Of a stretch of DNA of 64,000 nucleotides, positions 5,045 through 40,935 are shown piece by piece. Source of the stretch: Streptacidiphilus sp. PB12-B1b (lineage in GTDB: Bacteria; Actinomycetota; Actinomycetes; Streptomycetales; Streptomycetaceae); the NCBI RefSeq assembly GCF_014084125.1, contig NZ_CP048405.1:806001-870000 (forward strand), read 5' to 3'. Made by a program: the position numbers and the translations under genes. The notes under the pieces were generated by a model. That model saw only the letters and a program-made list of their open reading frames with translations. It had not been told where the DNA came from and did no database searches. Position 1 is the stretch's first letter. Each line of letters begins with the position of its first letter.

Positions 5045-7001
5045 GTGACCAGCCAGGTCCACGTGCCGACGCAGACCGACGAGCCGTTGCCCGGATCGCC
5101 GCCCGGCGGCGGCGCGCCCGCCGCCGCCGAGGGCCCCGCCGCCGAGCCCGGCCAGGGCAAGCGGGTCCGTCGGCTGGACCGGGTGGTGATCAGGTTCGCC
5201 GGGGACTCGGGCGACGGCATGCAGCTGACCGGGGACCGGTTCACCACCGAGACCGCCGGCTTCGGCAACGACCTCTCCACCCTGCCCAACTTCCCGGCCG
5301 AGATCCGCGCCCCCGCAGGCACCCTGCCGGGCGTCTCCTCGTTCCAGCTGCACTTCGCCGACCACGACATCCTCACCCCCGGCGACGCGCCGGACGTGCT
5401 GGTGGCGATGAACCCGGCCGCGCTCAAGGCCAACCTGGGCGACGTGCCGCGCGGCGCGGAGATCATCGTCAACACCGACGAGTTCACCAAGCGGGCGCTG
5501 GCCAAGGTCGGCTACCCGGCCGATCCGCTGGACGACGGCTCGCTGGCCGGGTACGCGGTCCACCCGGTGCCGCTGACCACGCTGACGCTGGAGGCGCTGA
5601 AGGACTCCGGGCTGGCCCGCAAGGACGCCGAGCGGGCCAAGAACATGTTCGCGCTGGGCCTGCTGTCGTGGATGTACCACCGGCCCACCGAGGGCACCGA
5701 AAGGTTCCTGCGGGCCAAGTTCGCCAAGCGCCCGGACATCGCCGAGGCCAACGTCACCGCGTTCAAGGCGGGCTGGAACTACGGCGAGACCACCGAGGAC
5801 TTCGCCGTCTCCTACGAGGTCGCCCCGGCCACCGCCGCCTTCGCGCCCGGCCGCTACCGCAACATCTCCGGCAACCTGGCGCTGGCCTACGGCCTGGTGG
5901 CCGCCGCCCGGCAGTCCGGGCTGCCGCTGTTCCTGGGCTCCTACCCGATCACCCCGGCCTCGGACATCCTGCACGAGCTGTCCAAGCACAAGAACTTCGG
6001 CGTGCGCACCTTCCAGGCCGAGGACGAGATCGCCGGGATCGGCGCGGCGCTGGGCGCGGCCTTCGGCGGGGCGCTGGGGGTGACCACCACCTCCGGGCCG
6101 GGGGTGGCGCTGAAGTCGGAGACCATCGGCCTGGCGGTCTCGCTGGAGCTGCCGCTGGTGGTGGTGGACATCCAGCGCGGCGGGCCCTCGACCGGGCTGC
6201 CCACCAAGACCGAGCAGGCCGACCTGCTGCAGGCCATGTACGGCCGCAACGGCGAGGCCCCGGTGCCGATCGTGGCCCCGGCCACCGCCGCCGAGTGCTT
6301 CGGCGCGGCCCTGGAGGCGGCCCGGATCGCGCTGACCTACCGCACCCCGGTGTTCCTGCTCTCCGACGGCTACCTGGCCAACGGCTCCGAGCCCTGGCGC
6401 ATCCCCGAGCCCGGCGAACTGCCGGACCTGCGGACCGCGTTCACCACCGCCCCGAACCGCCCGGACGGCTCGTTCTGGCCGTACCTGCGCGATCCGCAGA
6501 CCCTCGCCCGGCCCTGGGCGGTGCCCGGCACCCCCGGCCTGGAGCACCGGATCGGCGGGATCGAGAAGCAGGACGGCACCGGCAACATCTCCTACGACCC
6601 GGCCAACCACGAGCACATGGTCCGCACCCGGCAGGCCAAGGTGGACGGCGTCACGGTGCCCGACCTCGAGGTGGACGACCCCTCGCACGCCGCCCGGCTG
6701 CTGGTGCTGGGCTGGGGCTCGACCTACGGGCCGATCGCCGCCGCGGTGCGCCGGGTGCGCGCCGCCGGCGGCCGGGTGGCCCAGGCCCACCTGCGCCACC
6801 TCAACCCCTTCCCGGCCAACCTGGGCGAGCTGCTGGCCGGCTACGACCGGGTGCTGGTGCCGGAGATGAACCTGGGTCAGCTGGCCCACCTGGTCCGCGC
6901 CCGCTACCTGGTGGACGCGCGCTCGGTCAACCAGGTCACCGGCCTGCCGTTCAAGGCCGAGCAGCTCGCCGCCGCCATCACCGACCAGCTGGAGGACGAC
7001 C

Positions 7002-35569: not shown

Positions 35570-37234
35570 GTGACCAGATCCGTACTAGGGCGGGCCGCCG
35601 TGCTCACCGCGGCCGCCCTCATCGGGGCGTTCGGCCTCACCGGGGCCCCGGCCCTCGCCAGCACGCCGACCGTTGCCACCGGCAGCACCGCCACGACGAC
35701 CAGCGCAGCCGCCCGTACGCCGGCCATCGTCGCGCTGGGCGACAGCGCCATCTCGGGCGAAGGCGCGGGCACCGACACCGACGACGGCTACGTCGCCGGA
35801 ACCGACGGGCCCACCAACTTCTGCCACCGCAGCACCTCGTCGGAGATCTTCGACACCGGCCTGTCCGGGGTCACCGACGTCGACCTCGCCTGTTCCGGCG
35901 CGCAGACCGGCGATCTGGTGAGCGATCCCACCCTGGCCAAGATCACCGGCTCCGGCAGCGGCGACTTCGGCGAGCCCAAGCAGGACGCCGAACTCGCTCA
36001 GACCGCCGCCCAGTACCAGGTCAAGATGGTCGTGGTCACCATCGGCGCCAATGACGACTTCGACTTCAGCGGCATCATGGAGAGCTGCCTCGGACAGTAC
36101 TTCCCGATCCCGCAGTCCGAGGGCTGCCGCGACACCATCGGCAGTGCGACCATCACCGCGCGCGCCAAGGCCGTCATCCCGAAGATCGAGGCCGCGCTCA
36201 CCGACGTCCGGCAGACCATGCGCACCGCCGGCTACGCCGACGGCTCCTACCAGCTGGTCATGCAGTCCTACTTCACCCCGATCACCCCGGACATCCGCAG
36301 CAACAGCTACGCCACCAAGGTCGCCGACGGCTGCCCGGCCTTCCCGGAGGACCTCGCCTGGGGCCACAACTGGGTCGTCCCGCAGCTGGACGACGCCCTG
36401 CGGACCGCCGCCGAGGCCGTACCGGGCGTGCGCTTCCTCGACCAGCGCCGGGTCAGCTACGGCCACGAGGTCTGCGCCGAGATGACCACCTCGCCGTACG
36501 AGTACACCAACGGCGACGTGATCGACACCAGCGAGCTCACCCGCAACGGCTGCGACTACTCCATCGGCATCCTCGGCCTGTGCGAGGACGAGATCCGGCA
36601 GTCGTACCACCTGCGCGTCGCCGGCTACAAGGGCGAGGGCGCCTGCCTCGGCGAGTTCTACGCCGCCCCCTCCCAGCAGGAGGCGTACTGCACCCTGGAC
36701 CAGGGCGACGGCACGACCATCGAGCCGCTGACGGCCGGCCAGCCGTTCAACGACGCCCCGCAGGACGGCGCCTGGTTCCAGCTCACCAACCACGCCACCG
36801 GGCAGGTCCTCGACTTCTCCGGCGGCGGCAGCTACGGCGACAGCACCAACGGCCGCCAGGCGATCACCTATCCGGCGGACGGCGGGCTGAACCAGTCGTT
36901 CGTCTTCGAGGCCAAGCCGGGCGGCAGCTACGAGCTGGACTTCAGCGGCAACCGCGACATGTGCCTGGACGCCACCGGCGCCTCCACCGCCGCCGGAACC
37001 GCGCTGGAGCAGTGGGGCTGCAACGGCGGCGGCAACCAGCACTGGGTGCTGGAGCCCGCGGGCAACGGCCTCTACAAGGTCGCCGACTCGCAGAACACGG
37101 GCATGGTCGCCACCCTCGGCACCAGCGCCGTCACCGACTCCAGCGGCAACCCGGTCACCACCCTGCAAGCGGACACCGGCGCCCCCGGCCAACTGTGGCA
37201 GCTCACCCTCCTGGGCATCGTCTACCTCGGCTGA
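35570..37234 (+). CDS. Secreted SGNH-type esterase/lipase with C-terminal ricin-type lectin domain
   Basis: 554 residues. A Sec signal peptide ends near ALAST (about residue 28). The SGNH hydrolase domain has GDSAISGEG (block I, nucleophile Ser about residue 58), GANDDF (block III, about 158) and a late His candidate in SYHLRVAGY. About 14 Cys suggest disulfides. From about residue 395 a ricin-B-like lectin follows with QLTNHATGQVLDFSGG, CLDATGAS and two QxW-type motifs (NQHWVLEP, GQLWQLTL). GTG at 35570 follows AGGAGCC and fits the signal peptide; twenty-two upstream codons are rejected. Likely hydrolyses ester bonds in polysaccharides or lipids; the lectin would target it to glycans. Confidence 0.92.
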   Translation: MTRSVLGRAAVLTAAALIGAFGLTGAPALASTPTVATGSTATTTSAAARTPAIVALGDSAISGEGAGTDTDDGYVAGTDGPTNFCHRSTSSEIFDTGLSGVTDVDLACSGAQTGDLVSDPTLAKITGSGSGDFGEPKQDAELAQTAAQYQVKMVVVTIGANDDFDFSGIMESCLGQYFPIPQSEGCRDTIGSATITARAKAVIPKIEAALTDVRQTMRTAGYADGSYQLVMQSYFTPITPDIRSNSYATKVADGCPAFPEDLAWGHNWVVPQLDDALRTAAEAVPGVRFLDQRRVSYGHEVCAEMTTSPYEYTNGDVIDTSELTRNGCDYSIGILGLCEDEIRQSYHLRVAGYKGEGACLGEFYAAPSQQEAYCTLDQGDGTTIEPLTAGQPFNDAPQDGAWFQLTNHATGQVLDFSGGGSYGDSTNGRQAITYPADGGLNQSFVFEAKPGGSYELDFSGNRDMCLDATGASTAAGTALEQWGCNGGGNQHWVLEPAGNGLYKVADSQNTGMVATLGTSAVTDSSGNPVTTLQADTGAPGQLWQLTLLGIVYLG

Positions 37235-37328
37235 CCCCGGCTGAGCCGAGTCCGTCCTGATCCGGGGCGTGCGGCGCGCGAACTCCCTCCGCGCGCCGTA
37301 CGTCTCGCGCCATTTTGCCATTCCTTTA

Positions 37329-37355
37329 CAACCGGGTCCGCCGCTGCGTCGTCTC
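37329..37355 (+). promoter_or_regulatory. ECF-type promoter (CAACC-N16-CGTCTC) before the DUF4232/sortase genes
   Basis: CAACC at 37329-37333, then exactly 16 bp, then CGTCTC at 37350-37355, 72 bp before the ATG. The same boxes with the same spacing occur at 39135-39161 before the ECF sigma gene of this cluster. CAAC/CGTC boxes are the usual form of ECF promoters. Confidence 0.6.
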
Positions 37356-37427
37356 TCCGCACGATCTGAACAACGGTCAGCCCACGCCCCCAGCGGGTCG
37401 GGCCGACCCGACGAGAGAGAGCTACCC

Positions 37428-38291
37428 ATGCGCACAACCACCCTCGCCGCCGGGGCCCTGGCCTGCACCGCTGTGGTGCTCGGCGCCGCCCCGGCCATGG
37501 CCGCCGCCCCCGCGTCCGCCTCCTCCGCCGCGAAGACGCCCGCGTGCGCGACCTCGCAGCTGACGGCGTCCCTCGGCGGCAGCGACGCGGGCGCGGGCAA
37601 CCTGTACCGCTACCTGCTGCTGACCAACCACAGCGGCACCACCTGCGACGTCGCCGGATTCCCCGGCCTGTCCCTGCTGGACTCCCACGGCAAGGAGATC
37701 GGCGCCCCCGCCGTCTTCGACCACAACATCTCCTACACGGCGGTCGCCGTCCGCCCCGGACAGACCGTCAGCGACACCATCCACACCCTCAACTCCGGCG
37801 CCACCCCGTGCCAGGGCACCTCCACCAGCCTGCGCATCTACCCGCCGGCCAACAAGGCCGCGCTGGTCATCCCCGGCAAGGTCATGCTCTGCGGCAACCA
37901 GCTCAGCGTCAGCCCCTTCGCGGCGGGCACCACCGGCAACCCGTCCAACAGCGGCACCACCGTCACCCCCATCAGCGCGGCCTCGGGATCGCCGACCCCC
38001 GCCCCGAGCAGCGGTGGCGGAGCCGGGAGCGGGACCGGGGCGTCCGCCGCCCCGGCCACGCCCACGCCCAGCAGTGCCGGCAGCGGGACGGGCGCGGCCC
38101 CGGCCTCCTCCGCCTCCCCCGCCTCGGGCCAGGTCGGCGTCGTGCCGTCGGGCGCGCCCGACACCGGCGTGCCGCCGATCGGCGGGTCCAGCAACGAGAC
38201 CGGCCTGATCGCCGGTGCCTGCGCGATCGGCGCGGCGCTCCTCGGCGGCGCCGGCTTCATGCTGCGCCGCAGGTCGCAGGCGCGGGGCTGA
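37428..38291 (+). CDS. Secreted DUF4232 protein with sortase-type C-terminal anchor
   Basis: 287 residues: signal peptide (residues 1-25, ending AMAAAP), DUF4232 domain (about 37-165) with CATSQLTASLGGSDAGAGNL and three further Cys in SGTTCDVAGFPG, CQGTSTSLRIYPP and VMLCGNQL, which can form two disulfides. A long Ser/Pro/Ala/Gly stalk (about 170-240) follows, then GAPDTG (about 242-247), a hydrophobic helix, and RRRSQARG. The last three elements mimic a sortase sorting signal in which the usual LPxTG or LAxTG is replaced by APDTG. The next gene encodes a sortase, supporting wall anchoring. DUF4232 function is unknown. ATG follows CGAGAGAGAGC. Confidence 0.88.
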   Translation: MRTTTLAAGALACTAVVLGAAPAMAAAPASASSAAKTPACATSQLTASLGGSDAGAGNLYRYLLLTNHSGTTCDVAGFPGLSLLDSHGKEIGAPAVFDHNISYTAVAVRPGQTVSDTIHTLNSGATPCQGTSTSLRIYPPANKAALVIPGKVMLCGNQLSVSPFAAGTTGNPSNSGTTVTPISAASGSPTPAPSSGGGAGSGTGASAAPATPTPSSAGSGTGAAPASSASPASGQVGVVPSGAPDTGVPPIGGSSNETGLIAGACAIGAALLGGAGFMLRRRSQARG

Positions 38292-38294
38292 CTG

Positions 38295-39110
38295 TTGCGG
38301 CCGAGCAGGAGCAGGAGTGAGCCGGACCGCCCCGGCGGCGGTGTCCGTTCCGCGGGCGATCCGACGGCCGACGGCCTGACGTCCGGCAGTCCGACGCGTC
38401 GGGGTTCGGGTTCGCGTTCGGGCCCGGGGCCGGGTTTGGGCCCGGGCCCGGATCGGGGCCGGGGTGCGGGTCGGCGCGGGCGTCGGTCGGCGGCTGCTGG
38501 CGCGCTGCTGGCGGTGGTCCTCGCGGTGGCGCAGCTCTCCGGCTGCGCCTCCGGGAGCTCCGGCGCCGGTGCCCCCGTCGGCGCCCCGGCCCAGGCCGTC
38601 GCACCGCCTGCGGGCCCGCCCTCGGGTGCGCCCGCGCCCAAACCGCTGGCGCGGTCCGTTCCGGTACGGCTGGAGATCCCCGCGATCGGCGTGGACTCGC
38701 CCGTCATCCCGGTCGGGCTGGCTGCGGACGGGACGGTCGGCGTGCCGCCGATCGAGCGGAACGCCCCCGCGGGCTGGTACCAGAACTCGCCCACACCCGG
38801 GCAGCTCGGGCCCTCCGTGATCCTCGGCCATGTGACGGTCGGCCAGTACGGCGACGGCGTCTTCCTGCACCTCGCCCGGCTGGTCGCGGGCGACCGCGTG
38901 GTCCTGGTGCTCCAGGACGGTACGTCGGCGGTGTTCACCGTGGACTCGGTCCAGACCGTCTCCAAGGCGCACTTCCCGACGCAGTCGGTCTACGGCAACG
39001 TCGACCGCCCCGAGCTGCGGCTGATCACCTGCGCGGGCCCGCGCGGGGCCGACGGTCGCGGCTACCCGGACAACACCATCGTCTACGCAGGCCTGGCCTC
39101 GGCGAGTTGA
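38295..39110 (+). CDS. Class F sortase
   Basis: 271 residues. A polar Pro/Gly/Arg head of about 65 residues precedes a membrane/signal segment (about 66-85) ending in LSGC, which could also be a lipobox. The sortase fold follows: VRLEIPAIGVDSPVIPVGL, the catalytic His in VILGHVT (about 178), and the catalytic Cys in LRLITCAGP (about 245). Arrangement fits class F, the actinobacterial type of uncertain substrate choice. The start is uncertain: the TTG at 38295 gives an in-frame product, with no better ATG or GTG ahead of the helix. It lies 3 bp after the DUF4232 gene, whose tail is its probable substrate. Confidence 0.87.
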   Translation: MRPSRSRSEPDRPGGGVRSAGDPTADGLTSGSPTRRGSGSRSGPGPGLGPGPDRGRGAGRRGRRSAAAGALLAVVLAVAQLSGCASGSSGAGAPVGAPAQAVAPPAGPPSGAPAPKPLARSVPVRLEIPAIGVDSPVIPVGLAADGTVGVPPIERNAPAGWYQNSPTPGQLGPSVILGHVTVGQYGDGVFLHLARLVAGDRVVLVLQDGTSAVFTVDSVQTVSKAHFPTQSVYGNVDRPELRLITCAGPRGADGRGYPDNTIVYAGLASAS

Positions 39111-39134
39111 AGTCGTACAGGCACTCGGGCGTCG

Positions 39135-39161
39135 CAACCGAGAACCAGCCGGAACCGTCTC
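39135..39161 (+). promoter_or_regulatory. ECF-type promoter (CAACC-N16-CGTCTC) before the sigma gene
   Basis: CAACC at 39135-39139, 16-bp spacer, CGTCTC at 39156-39161, 53 bp before the sigma start at 39215. Identical boxes and spacing to 37329-37355, so the sigma factor probably activates itself and the sortase operon. Confidence 0.6.
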
Positions 39162-39214
39162 GTCCAGTGAGACCCGCCGAACCGGCGGCGGACCCCTTAC
39201 AGACGAGGAGCACG

Positions 39215-39709
39215 GTGCCCCGGTCGATCCGGTCCGACGAGAGGGAGGCGTCCGAGCTGTTCGCCGCCCTCTACCCGAGGCTGGCCGGCTGGTGCCGCCG
39301 CCTGGTCGACGACGACGGCACGGCCCACGAGGTCGCCTCCGAGGCGTTCACCCGGCTGTGGGCGCGCTGGACCAAGGTCGAGGAGCCGCGCGGATTCCTG
39401 TACGTCACCGCGGCCAACCTGGTCCGCGACCACTGGCGCAAAATGGAGCGCGAACGGCGGGCCGTGCGGCGCGCCACCACGGAGGAACTCGTGAACGACC
39501 GGCAGCGCACGGACGCGGGCGACCCGTCCGTGCGCCTGCTGGTGCAGTCACTGCCTCCGCGGCTGCGCACGCCCGTCCTGCTGTACTACTACGCTGACCT
39601 GCCCGTGCGCGAGGTGTCCGCGCTGATGGGGCGGAACGAGGGAACGGTGAAGGCCGATCTGCACGCAGCCAGGGAACTGCTGCGCGCCAAGCTGGGAGAG
39701 TCGGCATGA
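39215..39709 (+). CDS. ECF-type RNA polymerase sigma factor
   Basis: 164 residues if started at the GTG at 39215, which has GAGGAG five bases upstream; a longer frame back to the sortase stop adds 36 polar residues. Region 2 is seen as ASELFAALYPRLAGWCRRLV and EVASEAFTRLWARW, followed by LYVTAANLVRDHWRK. Region 4 is SLPPRLRTPVLLYYYADLPV and EVSALMGRNEGTVKADLHAA. It directs RNA polymerase to a small regulon, apparently including the DUF4232/sortase genes. Its stop overlaps the start of the membrane DUF4232 gene (ATGA), the usual position of an anti-sigma factor gene. Confidence 0.93.
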   Translation: MPRSIRSDEREASELFAALYPRLAGWCRRLVDDDGTAHEVASEAFTRLWARWTKVEEPRGFLYVTAANLVRDHWRKMERERRAVRRATTEELVNDRQRTDAGDPSVRLLVQSLPPRLRTPVLLYYYADLPVREVSALMGRNEGTVKADLHAARELLRAKLGESA

Positions 39710-40935
39710 CCGCACACCCCGACAACCCGCCCCCCGACGACCCCACCCCCGCCCCACACCAGCCCGCAGGCGGCCCCGCCCCCGACCCCGGCGCGCCCGC
39801 CGCCCCCGGCGTCCCGGCTGACCCCTCCGCCCCCGCTTACCTCGCCGCGCCCGGCACCCCCGGCCTCCCGGCTGACCCGGCTGCGCCCGGCGCGCTGGGT
39901 GTGCCTGCCGCCCCCGCCGCCCCCGGGCCGACCGGCACCCCCGTGGCGCCCGGCACCTCTGGGGCCCCCGGTAACCCCGGCGCCCCCGCCAAACCCGCCC
40001 TCCCAGCCGTCCCGGGCACCCCCGCCGCGCCCGGCTCGACCGGCCTCCCGGCCGATCCGTACGACCTCGGCGGGTGGACGCCCGGGCTGGATCCGGTCGC
40101 GCCGCTGCTCGGGGCACCCGTCGAGCCGCTGCCCGTGCCGGCTGGCTCGTTCGAGCGCATCCGGCGTCGTGCCACGCGTCGCAGACGGGTCCGCGCCGCC
40201 GTCGGCGGGGGAGCCGTCGCCGCTGTCGTCGCCGGATCGCTGTACCTCCTCGGCGTCCCCAGCCACCTCTGGGACGCCGCACCGCCCGTCACCGCCACCG
40301 GCGGCACCCCGCCCGCGCTGGTGCCGCACAGCACCTCCGCCACCCCCACCCCGCCCGCCGTCCAGCACACACCGGCCGCCACCCAGCAGCCGAGCACGTT
40401 CAACACGCCGACCCCGTCCCCGGACGCGGCTCCGGCGAACCCCTCGGAAGGCTCCGGCGCGGCCCCCGCCAGCGTCCCCTCCACCTCGGCCTCGGCCGTT
40501 TCCGGCACCGGGGCCGACGGCCCCCTGTGCGCCAGCTCGCAGCTGACAGCGTCCCTCGGCGGCAGCGACGCGGGCGCGGGCAACCTGTACCGGTACCTGC
40601 TGCTCACCAACAACGGCAGCACGAGCTGTTTGGTGAGCGGATTCCCCGGCCTGTCGCTGCTGGACGCCCAGGGCGGCGTGCTCGGCGCGCCCGCGACCTT
40701 CGACCACACCTACACGTACGCACCGGTGGAGCTCGCGCCGGGACAGACGGCCAGCGACACCATCCACACCCTCAACGCCGGAGCCACCACCTGTCAGGGC
40801 ACCTCCACCAGCCTGCGCATCTACCCGCCGGGCAACAAGGCCGCACTGGTCATCCCGGGCGCGGTCATGCTCTGCGGCAACCTCCTGACCGTCACGCCCT
40901 TCACCTCAGGCACCACCGGCAACCCGCCCTCCTGA
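39706..40935 (+). CDS. Membrane DUF4232 protein in anti-sigma position
   Basis: 409 residues. The N-terminal cytoplasmic 145 residues consist of collagen-like Pro/Gly/Ala repeats (PGTPGLPADPAAPG style), then FERIRRRATRRRRVRA, one transmembrane helix (about 165-184), a Thr/Pro/Ser stalk, and an extracellular DUF4232 domain (about 273-405) starting CASSQLTASLGGSDAGAGNL. That domain is almost identical, also in DNA, to the one in the secreted protein at 37428. Start overlaps the sigma gene stop, so coupling is certain. The cytoplasmic part lacks a recognisable zinc anti-sigma domain; an anti-sigma role is inferred from position and topology only. Confidence 0.85.
   Translation: MTAHPDNPPPDDPTPAPHQPAGGPAPDPGAPAAPGVPADPSAPAYLAAPGTPGLPADPAAPGALGVPAAPAAPGPTGTPVAPGTSGAPGNPGAPAKPALPAVPGTPAAPGSTGLPADPYDLGGWTPGLDPVAPLLGAPVEPLPVPAGSFERIRRRATRRRRVRAAVGGGAVAAVVAGSLYLLGVPSHLWDAAPPVTATGGTPPALVPHSTSATPTPPAVQHTPAATQQPSTFNTPTPSPDAAPANPSEGSGAAPASVPSTSASAVSGTGADGPLCASSQLTASLGGSDAGAGNLYRYLLLTNNGSTSCLVSGFPGLSLLDAQGGVLGAPATFDHTYTYAPVELAPGQTASDTIHTLNAGATTCQGTSTSLRIYPPGNKAALVIPGAVMLCGNLLTVTPFTSGTTGNPPS

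Follow-up and report, generated by a model that had tools for sequence, protein, structure and literature searches.

The analyzed DNA, called the window in the following, is a stretch of 64,000 nucleotides from the genome of Streptacidiphilus sp. PB12-B1b. It contains an operon of four consecutive genes encoding a secreted DUF4232 protein with a sorting tail (the cargo), a class F sortase, an extracytoplasmic function (ECF) sigma factor and a membrane-bound DUF4232 protein (the membrane partner), whose gene overlaps that of the sigma factor. This gene set had been proposed in a first-pass annotation of the DNA and was confirmed by profile matches and coordinates. We consider it probable that the operon is an autoregulated module, whose sigma factor would be dedicated to one wall-anchored protein. 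The following features were identified:

37324..37356, forward strand: P1, putative promoter, CTTTACAACC-N15-TCGTCTC followed by T, with the core CAACC-N16-CGTCTC at 37329-37355.
37428..38291, forward strand: cargo, secreted DUF4232 protein of 287 amino acids (Pfam DUF4232 88.1 bits, cut-off 27; gene call).
~37536-37919, forward strand: DUF4232 domain of the cargo (domain limits).
38151..38168, forward strand: GAPDTG, the sorting motif in the cargo, with a hydrophobic helix and the tail RRRS behind it (sequence).
38295..39110, forward strand: class F sortase (NCBIfam NF033748 184.3 bits, cut-off 166).
38535..38546, forward strand: lipobox L-S-G-C of the sortase (sequence).
39135..39161, forward strand: P2, match to the 11-base core between the sortase and sigma genes, a weak promoter candidate.
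39215..39709, forward strand: ECF sigma factor of 164 amino acids (Pfam Sigma70_r2 and r4_2 over cut-off).
39706..40935, forward strand: membrane partner (Pfam DUF4232 92 bits, cut-off 27).
~40186-40251, forward strand: single predicted transmembrane helix of the membrane partner.
40522-40902, forward strand: DUF4232 domain of the membrane partner (Pfam).

The cargo begins with a signal peptide, which is followed by the DUF4232 domain and the sorting tail. With an xPxTG-like motif (GAPDTG), a hydrophobic helix and a basic end (RRRS), this tail displays the parts by which sortase substrates are recognized. The start of the sortase gene is uncertain; TTG at 38295 is the earliest start in a frame that is open to 39110. 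For the sigma gene, GTG at 39215, located 3′ of GAGGAG, was the best reading, and the gene calls of most relatives begin at about the same place. According to Pfam the deduced protein has regions 2 and 4 only, as defined for ECF factors, and its score against the SigE-family profile TIGR02983 was 85.6 bits, which is under the cut-off of 141.55 bits. The start codon of the membrane partner lies inside the sigma stop (ATGA overlap). Its product possesses a cytoplasmic N-terminus with the basic patch G-S-F-E-R-I-R-R-R-A-T-R-R-R, the transmembrane helix, a proline-rich linker and the DUF4232 domain.

Conservation of the operon was studied on 101 loci (the window, 80 named and 20 fetched loci), from which seven with repeated sigma DNA were removed, leaving 94 distinct loci. 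The named loci were the best 80 of 312 related ones, and the records bear the names Streptomyces, Actinacidiphila and Streptacidiphilus. Among 200 genomes, the sigma orthologues of Streptomycetaceae were 69-92% identical, followed by a single one at 59% and by none above 39%; a match of at least 59% was obtained in 73 of these genomes. In 93 of the 94 loci, L165 being the exception, the sortase gene directly precedes the sigma gene in the same orientation, and in a separate genome search, many of whose loci are among the 94, a sortase gene was located within 1.5 kb of the sigma gene in 43 of 43 cases. A membrane partner was found in 88 loci, while five others end too soon and one, L070, has broken frames. 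Judged by the compared sequences, the gene set, the order, the promoter and the overlap are conserved. The linkage expected by the first-pass annotation was thereby borne out for the gene order, though not for the presence of DUF4232.

Three loci of this sample were peculiar. L165 (G097, 5268-6573) harbors the divergent sigma gene (59%) with a DUF4232 membrane partner and has neither a sortase nor a cargo gene adjoining. In L070 (Streptacidiphilus sp. 4-A2) the frames of cargo, sortase and membrane protein are broken in the record, due to an assembly error or to decay. Streptomyces sp. Y2F8-2 contains two copies (L081 and L083) with identical sigma DNA approximately 34 kb apart, which reflect a duplication or an assembly artefact.

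Two promoters with identical boxes and spacing, CAACC-N16-CGTCTC, had been annotated before the cargo gene (P1) and the sigma gene (P2). Both boxes are present as noted and are the only matches in the 64-kb window (37329 and 39135); shuffled sequences gave a mean of 0.07 matches, and none of 100 shuffles reached two. They are unequal, though, as only P1 possesses the extended consensus of the family. The exact core of P1 was found within 2.3 kb upstream of the sigma gene in 78 of the 94 loci, whereas 13 other spacer lengths gave no match upstream of sigma across these loci and 199 permuted motifs gave a mean of 0.11 and a maximum of 2. In all 78 loci CTTT is positioned 5′ of the -35 box and a T 3′ of the -10 box, with a largely variable spacer between the boxes. 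The conserved promoter is longer than the core noted before and reads CTTTACAACC-N15-TCGTCTC. The loci are kin rather than independent samples; the variable spacer indicates, however, that they have had time for change. P2 matches the 11-base core only. Exact counterparts beside the sigma gene were confined to L070 and L166 (Streptacidiphilus), and L069 contains a similar version with a 15-base spacer. This conservation says little, because the DNA around P2 is 83% alike among the three Streptacidiphilus loci. As a mere core match that is exact in these three loci, P2 was rejected as a family-wide promoter.

In the whole genome of PB12-B1b (7.67 Mb) the core matched ten times and the reversed control pattern not at all. 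Seven matches lie within called genes, and of the three intergenic ones two belong to the operon and one is located 41 bp in front of a further gene for a secreted DUF4232 protein. The genome-wide check for the box in front of genes for DUF4232 proteins and sortases, by which the first-pass annotation wished to be judged, came out in its favor, with the operon sites and this one further DUF4232 gene. The bare core is not specific, because seven other genomes yielded 54 matches versus 21 for the reversed control. Thirty of the 54 were given a locus and inspected singly: 22 reside in called genes, five at the operon, one before a gene for a secreted alpha/beta hydrolase (L196), and two (L180, L192) outside called genes with no called gene after them. 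Each of the seven other genomes has a single exact match to the 17-base pattern CTTTACAACC-N15-TCGTCTC, which is located at the operon; PB12-B1b has two exact places, P1 and the DUF4232 gene at G000:C1:4874087. When up to two mismatches were allowed, the eight genomes contained 14 matches (reversed control, one). Eight of them are exact and at the operon, one is exact and before the second DUF4232 gene of PB12-B1b, one with a single mismatch precedes a gene for a secreted peptidase (L285), and four with two mismatches are inside genes. A wide regulon was rejected for the genomes examined, as the core matches are mostly inside genes and the extended pattern is nearly restricted to the operon. 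Since exact copies of the extended pattern are restricted to the operon in seven genomes, with one additional gene here, the regulon of the sigma factor looks like one of nearly a single operon.

We infer that the sigma factor reads P1 and would thereby switch on the operon including its own gene, because P1 is conserved in this same operon and has very few other sites. Conceivably, the conserved box could be read by another ECF factor, the operon sigma having other targets. Streptomyces possess many ECF factors with related -35 and -10 boxes, and the bare core is also found inside genes. Nevertheless, we regard this explanation as very improbable in view of the distribution of the exact extended site given above and of the co-occurrence of box and sigma gene across the loci.

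The second DUF4232 gene of PB12-B1b (G000:C1:4874015-4874623; L023 8016-8624) encodes a secreted protein of 178 amino acids without a sorting tail and is preceded at a distance of 41 bp by the complete extended promoter. It is a probable second target of the operon sigma. Since the genome contains seven DUF4232 matches, a third box in front of such a gene is unlikely to be due to chance; the gene may have been copied together with its promoter. Two other sites were observed in one and the same Streptomyces genome, a core site 80 bp before the secreted alpha/beta hydrolase gene (L196, G199:C1:3295109) and a one-mismatch extended site 195 bp before the secreted peptidase gene (L285, G199:C1:6797969; peptidase type by eye). 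They are possible strain-specific extra targets of the sigma factor.

The motif GAP[DN]TG was present in the upstream open frame in 87 of the 94 loci. Six loci revealed variants (GAPYTG, AAPNTG, EAPDTG, GAADTG, GAAGTG and GGAGTG) whose tails are of the same type, and L165 none. A search of the PB12-B1b genome with the sorting tail gave no second convincing match, only one match being below E 0.2. Against the NCBIfam profile GVDTG_CTERM (NF058571, cut-off 29 bits) the cargo scored 21 bits and three Streptomyces cargos scored 19.5 to 25.8 bits. Class F sortases in general were surveyed in eight genomes, where 46 profile matches led to 35 loci (11 matches got no locus). An ECF gene adjoins only the five belonging to this operon family, of which four have an xPxTG cargo and the fifth the GAADTG variant. 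A lipobox was detected in 65 of 65 parsed sortases, in 62 by pattern and in three (LCGC) by eye; the remaining 29 of the 94 loci were left out, as 24 failed the domain pattern and five had no sortase frame in the parser, although a profile search finds the sortase in four of these five. Many Streptomyces copies carry the leader SRRAF, which is twin-arginine-like according to our own reading. Actinobacterial class F sortases have a catalytic His and Cys with Asn replacing Arg (PMC6998099), and, judged by eye, the translated sortase agrees with this by its segments GHVT, LITCAG and YPDN. The operon encodes one sortase and, as predicted from its sequence, one matching sorting tail.

SCO3735-SCO3738 of S. 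coelicolor are the probable counterpart of the operon, with SCO3736-SCO3738 being very probably orthologous, as matched by published description and gene order. In that description SCO3736 is an ECF sigma factor gene with SCO3737, coding for a lipoprotein/sortase of the cd05829 group, directly upstream; further upstream is SCO3738 for a small membrane protein proposed as sortase substrate, and downstream SCO3735 for a putative secreted protein (PMC5882110). SCO3736, SCO3737 and SCO3738 were up 13-, 37- and 32-fold, respectively, in a ppm1 mutant, the three most significant changes reported (PMC5882110). The rise of the sigma gene together with the operon is what autoregulation would predict. 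The account of SCO3735-SCO3738, in the part of PMC5882110 available, differs from ours in that it mentions neither DUF4232 nor an anti-sigma factor, a promoter or autoregulation. Hence the remark of the first-pass annotation that it knew of no described system of this kind holds for the circuit, its promoter and the anti-sigma factor as far as that text goes, while SCO3736-SCO3738 are in print as ppm1-induced genes. The available part of PMC3123327 contains nothing on the operon, and in the open-licence literature no paper was found that pairs DUF4232 with a sigma factor. In this literature SCO3735 and SCO3737 were each encountered in one paper and SCO3736 in three.

As to the membrane partner, a fixed pattern captured the cytoplasmic basic patch of 85 of the 88 partners, and the other three differ from it slightly. 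Distant relatives of the sigma factor (39.5-63% identity, other actinobacterial families) were not accompanied by a sortase in any of 20 loci. A frame with a hydrophobic helix follows the sigma gene in all 19 distant loci that have downstream DNA, and a Pro-x-basic patch was recognized by eye in 14 of these 19 partners. The ectodomains of the distant partners are different ones; the two that were scanned (L247 and L258) gave weak matches to Pfam BNR repeats, and by appearance the outside parts in L247, L250, L258 and L262 consist of BNR-type repeats. Because the distant loci keep the partner and lack the sortase, the data suggest that the sigma factor and its membrane partner are an old unit, to which sortase, cargo and promoter would have been added in Streptomycetaceae. 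An overlap of the genes and persistent pairing are usual for sigma/anti-sigma pairs. From its position, its topology and its pairing with the sigma factor even in distant actinobacteria without a sortase, we infer that the membrane partner inhibits the sigma factor.

The self-driving circuit of sigma factor, sortase and cargo with a membrane partner, as envisaged in the first-pass annotation, is supported by the conserved promoter, gene order and overlap. Several observations weigh against it. Sixteen of the 94 loci do not contain the exact P1 core; three of them have a CAACT version with the same flanks, and in 13 no near version was detected by the pattern used. Much else is altered in the ppm1 mutant, which was chosen for RNA sequencing instead of pmt (PMC5882110). 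SCO3736 was down in acid shock, a response without link to the model (PMC2631018), and the main text of the S. coelicolor glycoproteome paper does not mention SCO3735, SCO3737 or SCO3738. The distant downstream frames were chosen for a hydrophobic stretch, which favors the result, and five of the 19 distant partners have no basic patch. Furthermore, the cytoplasmic part of the partner is short, approximately 45 amino acids in most Streptomyces, its consensus contains no His/Cys zinc motif, and scans with Pfam and NCBIfam profiles gave no match to an anti-sigma domain. Thus, an assignment of the partner to the class I (zinc) anti-sigma factors was rejected. The very short cytoplasmic part of most members and the lack of a recognized anti-sigma domain would also fit a membrane protein that helps the sigma factor, i.e., a positive regulator, or a plain envelope protein that does not touch it. 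We think that this is rather improbable, since the start codon of the partner lies across the sigma stop and both genes remain paired in distant families with another ectodomain and no sortase.

Among anti-sigma factors, CnrY is a short, minimal inhibitor. The operon of BldN and RsbN is not known to contain a sortase gene, and the chaplins are anchored by class E sortases. CnrH-CnrY and the class II anti-sigma domains provide a precedent for anti-sigma factors outside class I, in a comparison of the way of working only (PMC8103513). BldN-RsbN of S. venezuelae resembles the proposed pair in that an ECF sigma factor is combined with a membrane-anchored anti-sigma factor and activates genes for surface proteins, the chaplins; it differs insofar as RsbN defines the anti-sigma class ASDIII (PMC8103513, PMC4255298). 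A co-transcription of sortase genes with their own substrates is a proposal cited in PMC5882110. The operon shares with such arrangements the dedicated sortase and substrate; it differs by including a membrane partner as well as a sigma factor of its own, and by its lipoprotein-like sortase.

The DUF4232 domain, which the first-pass annotation had regarded as the shared extracellular part of the circuit, is real in both proteins of PB12-B1b and is not essential elsewhere. In a tally of 84 loci (ten others end too soon) it was found in cargo and membrane partner of 16 loci, in neither protein of 67, in the membrane partner only of one (L165) and never in the cargo only. DUF4232 is an optional ectodomain and was rejected as the defining feature of the circuit; the genomes G099 and G120 hold both versions. 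In 56 loci without DUF4232, which passed simple filters, the ectodomains of cargo and partner were rich in Pro, Ser and Thr (47% and 54%, respectively). The domains of cargo and membrane partner were 73% identical within the same locus, 66% between different loci and 71% among cargos, and none of 19,999 permutations reached the same-locus value (15 loci; L070 and L165 were left out). A domain tree, from which L070 was omitted, implied seven changes of role on the best tree, three of them forced by strong branches, and the four copies of the window and L166 form one set with a support of 100/99. Taken at the level of the sequences, the cargo and membrane copies evolve in concert in part, be it by selection or by gene conversion.

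These data bear on a feedback put forward in the first-pass annotation, according to which anchored or free cargo competes for the ligand of the membrane partner or pairs with the partner, so that the cell would sense the amount of cargo in its wall. The joint occurrence of the domains, their same-locus identity, the role changes and the common set in the tree, and the likeness in composition of the ectodomains without DUF4232 speak for it. However, the sigma tree allows few origins of the DUF4232 versions, and since it is consistent with few gains, the co-occurrence amounts to few events. In only 5 of 15 loci did the own membrane copy rank first among the matches of the cargo (ranks up to 10), and the roles are somewhat clustered, as shuffled labels gave 10.6 changes compared with the seven observed. 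Moreover, neutral gene conversion between neighboring repeats can also result in concerted evolution, and tails of low complexity are widespread among the secreted proteins of actinobacteria. A competition of the two copies for a ligand or for each other is therefore suggestive only, and the cargo as a signal appears a tentative idea, on the unlikely side. An AlphaFold model of the domain (pLDDT 82) consists mostly of strands. Foldseek gave no match to this model at E ≤0.001; among the matches listed was 3isy, a small domain of similar length (E 0.03, TM 0.52), and a sequence search of the PDB resulted in one match with E 0.77. The fold searches did not point to a ligand.

The gene just upstream of the operon (35600-37234) codes for a secreted hydrolase that matched GDSL weakly and carries lectin repeats of the ricin-B type. 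Just outside the window (L024 4239-9304, G000:C1:878338-883403), a further ECF gene is likewise overlapped by the gene of a membrane protein, and a DUF4232 lipoprotein-like gene lies approximately 3 kb away.

In the proposed mechanism, RNA polymerase with the sigma factor would read P1, by which cargo, class F sortase, sigma factor and membrane partner would be transcribed. The lipid-anchored sortase would cut the cargo at GAPDTG and join it to the wall. The membrane partner would hold the sigma factor at the membrane via its short basic juxtamembrane segment and free it once the outside part reports a change of the envelope. The cue might be the state of mannosylation of this outside part; the induction of the probable S. 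coelicolor operon without polyprenol-phosphate-mannose would fit a normally mannosylated sensor rich in Ser, Thr and Pro. Both the release cue and a feedback by the cargo are speculative. A further idea, which we deem unlikely, is that the partner ectodomain is a decoy of the cargo and shares its extracellular fate (O-mannosylation, folding, binding of a ligand or of the wall), and that the sigma factor is released when this ectodomain is unfinished or unoccupied.

Class F sortases were reported in 2020 to be without designated function (PMC6998099), their roles are described as unknown, and Actinoplanes missouriensis displayed no phenotypic change upon a quadruple class F deletion (PMC13251363). 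By uniting a single sortase and its substrate with one sigma factor and an almost unique promoter, the conserved operon makes the function of a class F sortase directly testable, for which it offers a defined substrate and a reporter. The loss of polyprenol-phosphate-mannose is a candidate inducing condition, provided that the S. coelicolor operon corresponds to this one. The system furthermore represents an evolutionary case in which sensor and output share one ectodomain, and a compact circuit present in many Streptomyces and relatives. If the partner ectodomain should indeed act as a decoy, the cell would gauge by it the quality of export and anchoring and would answer with more cargo and sortase.

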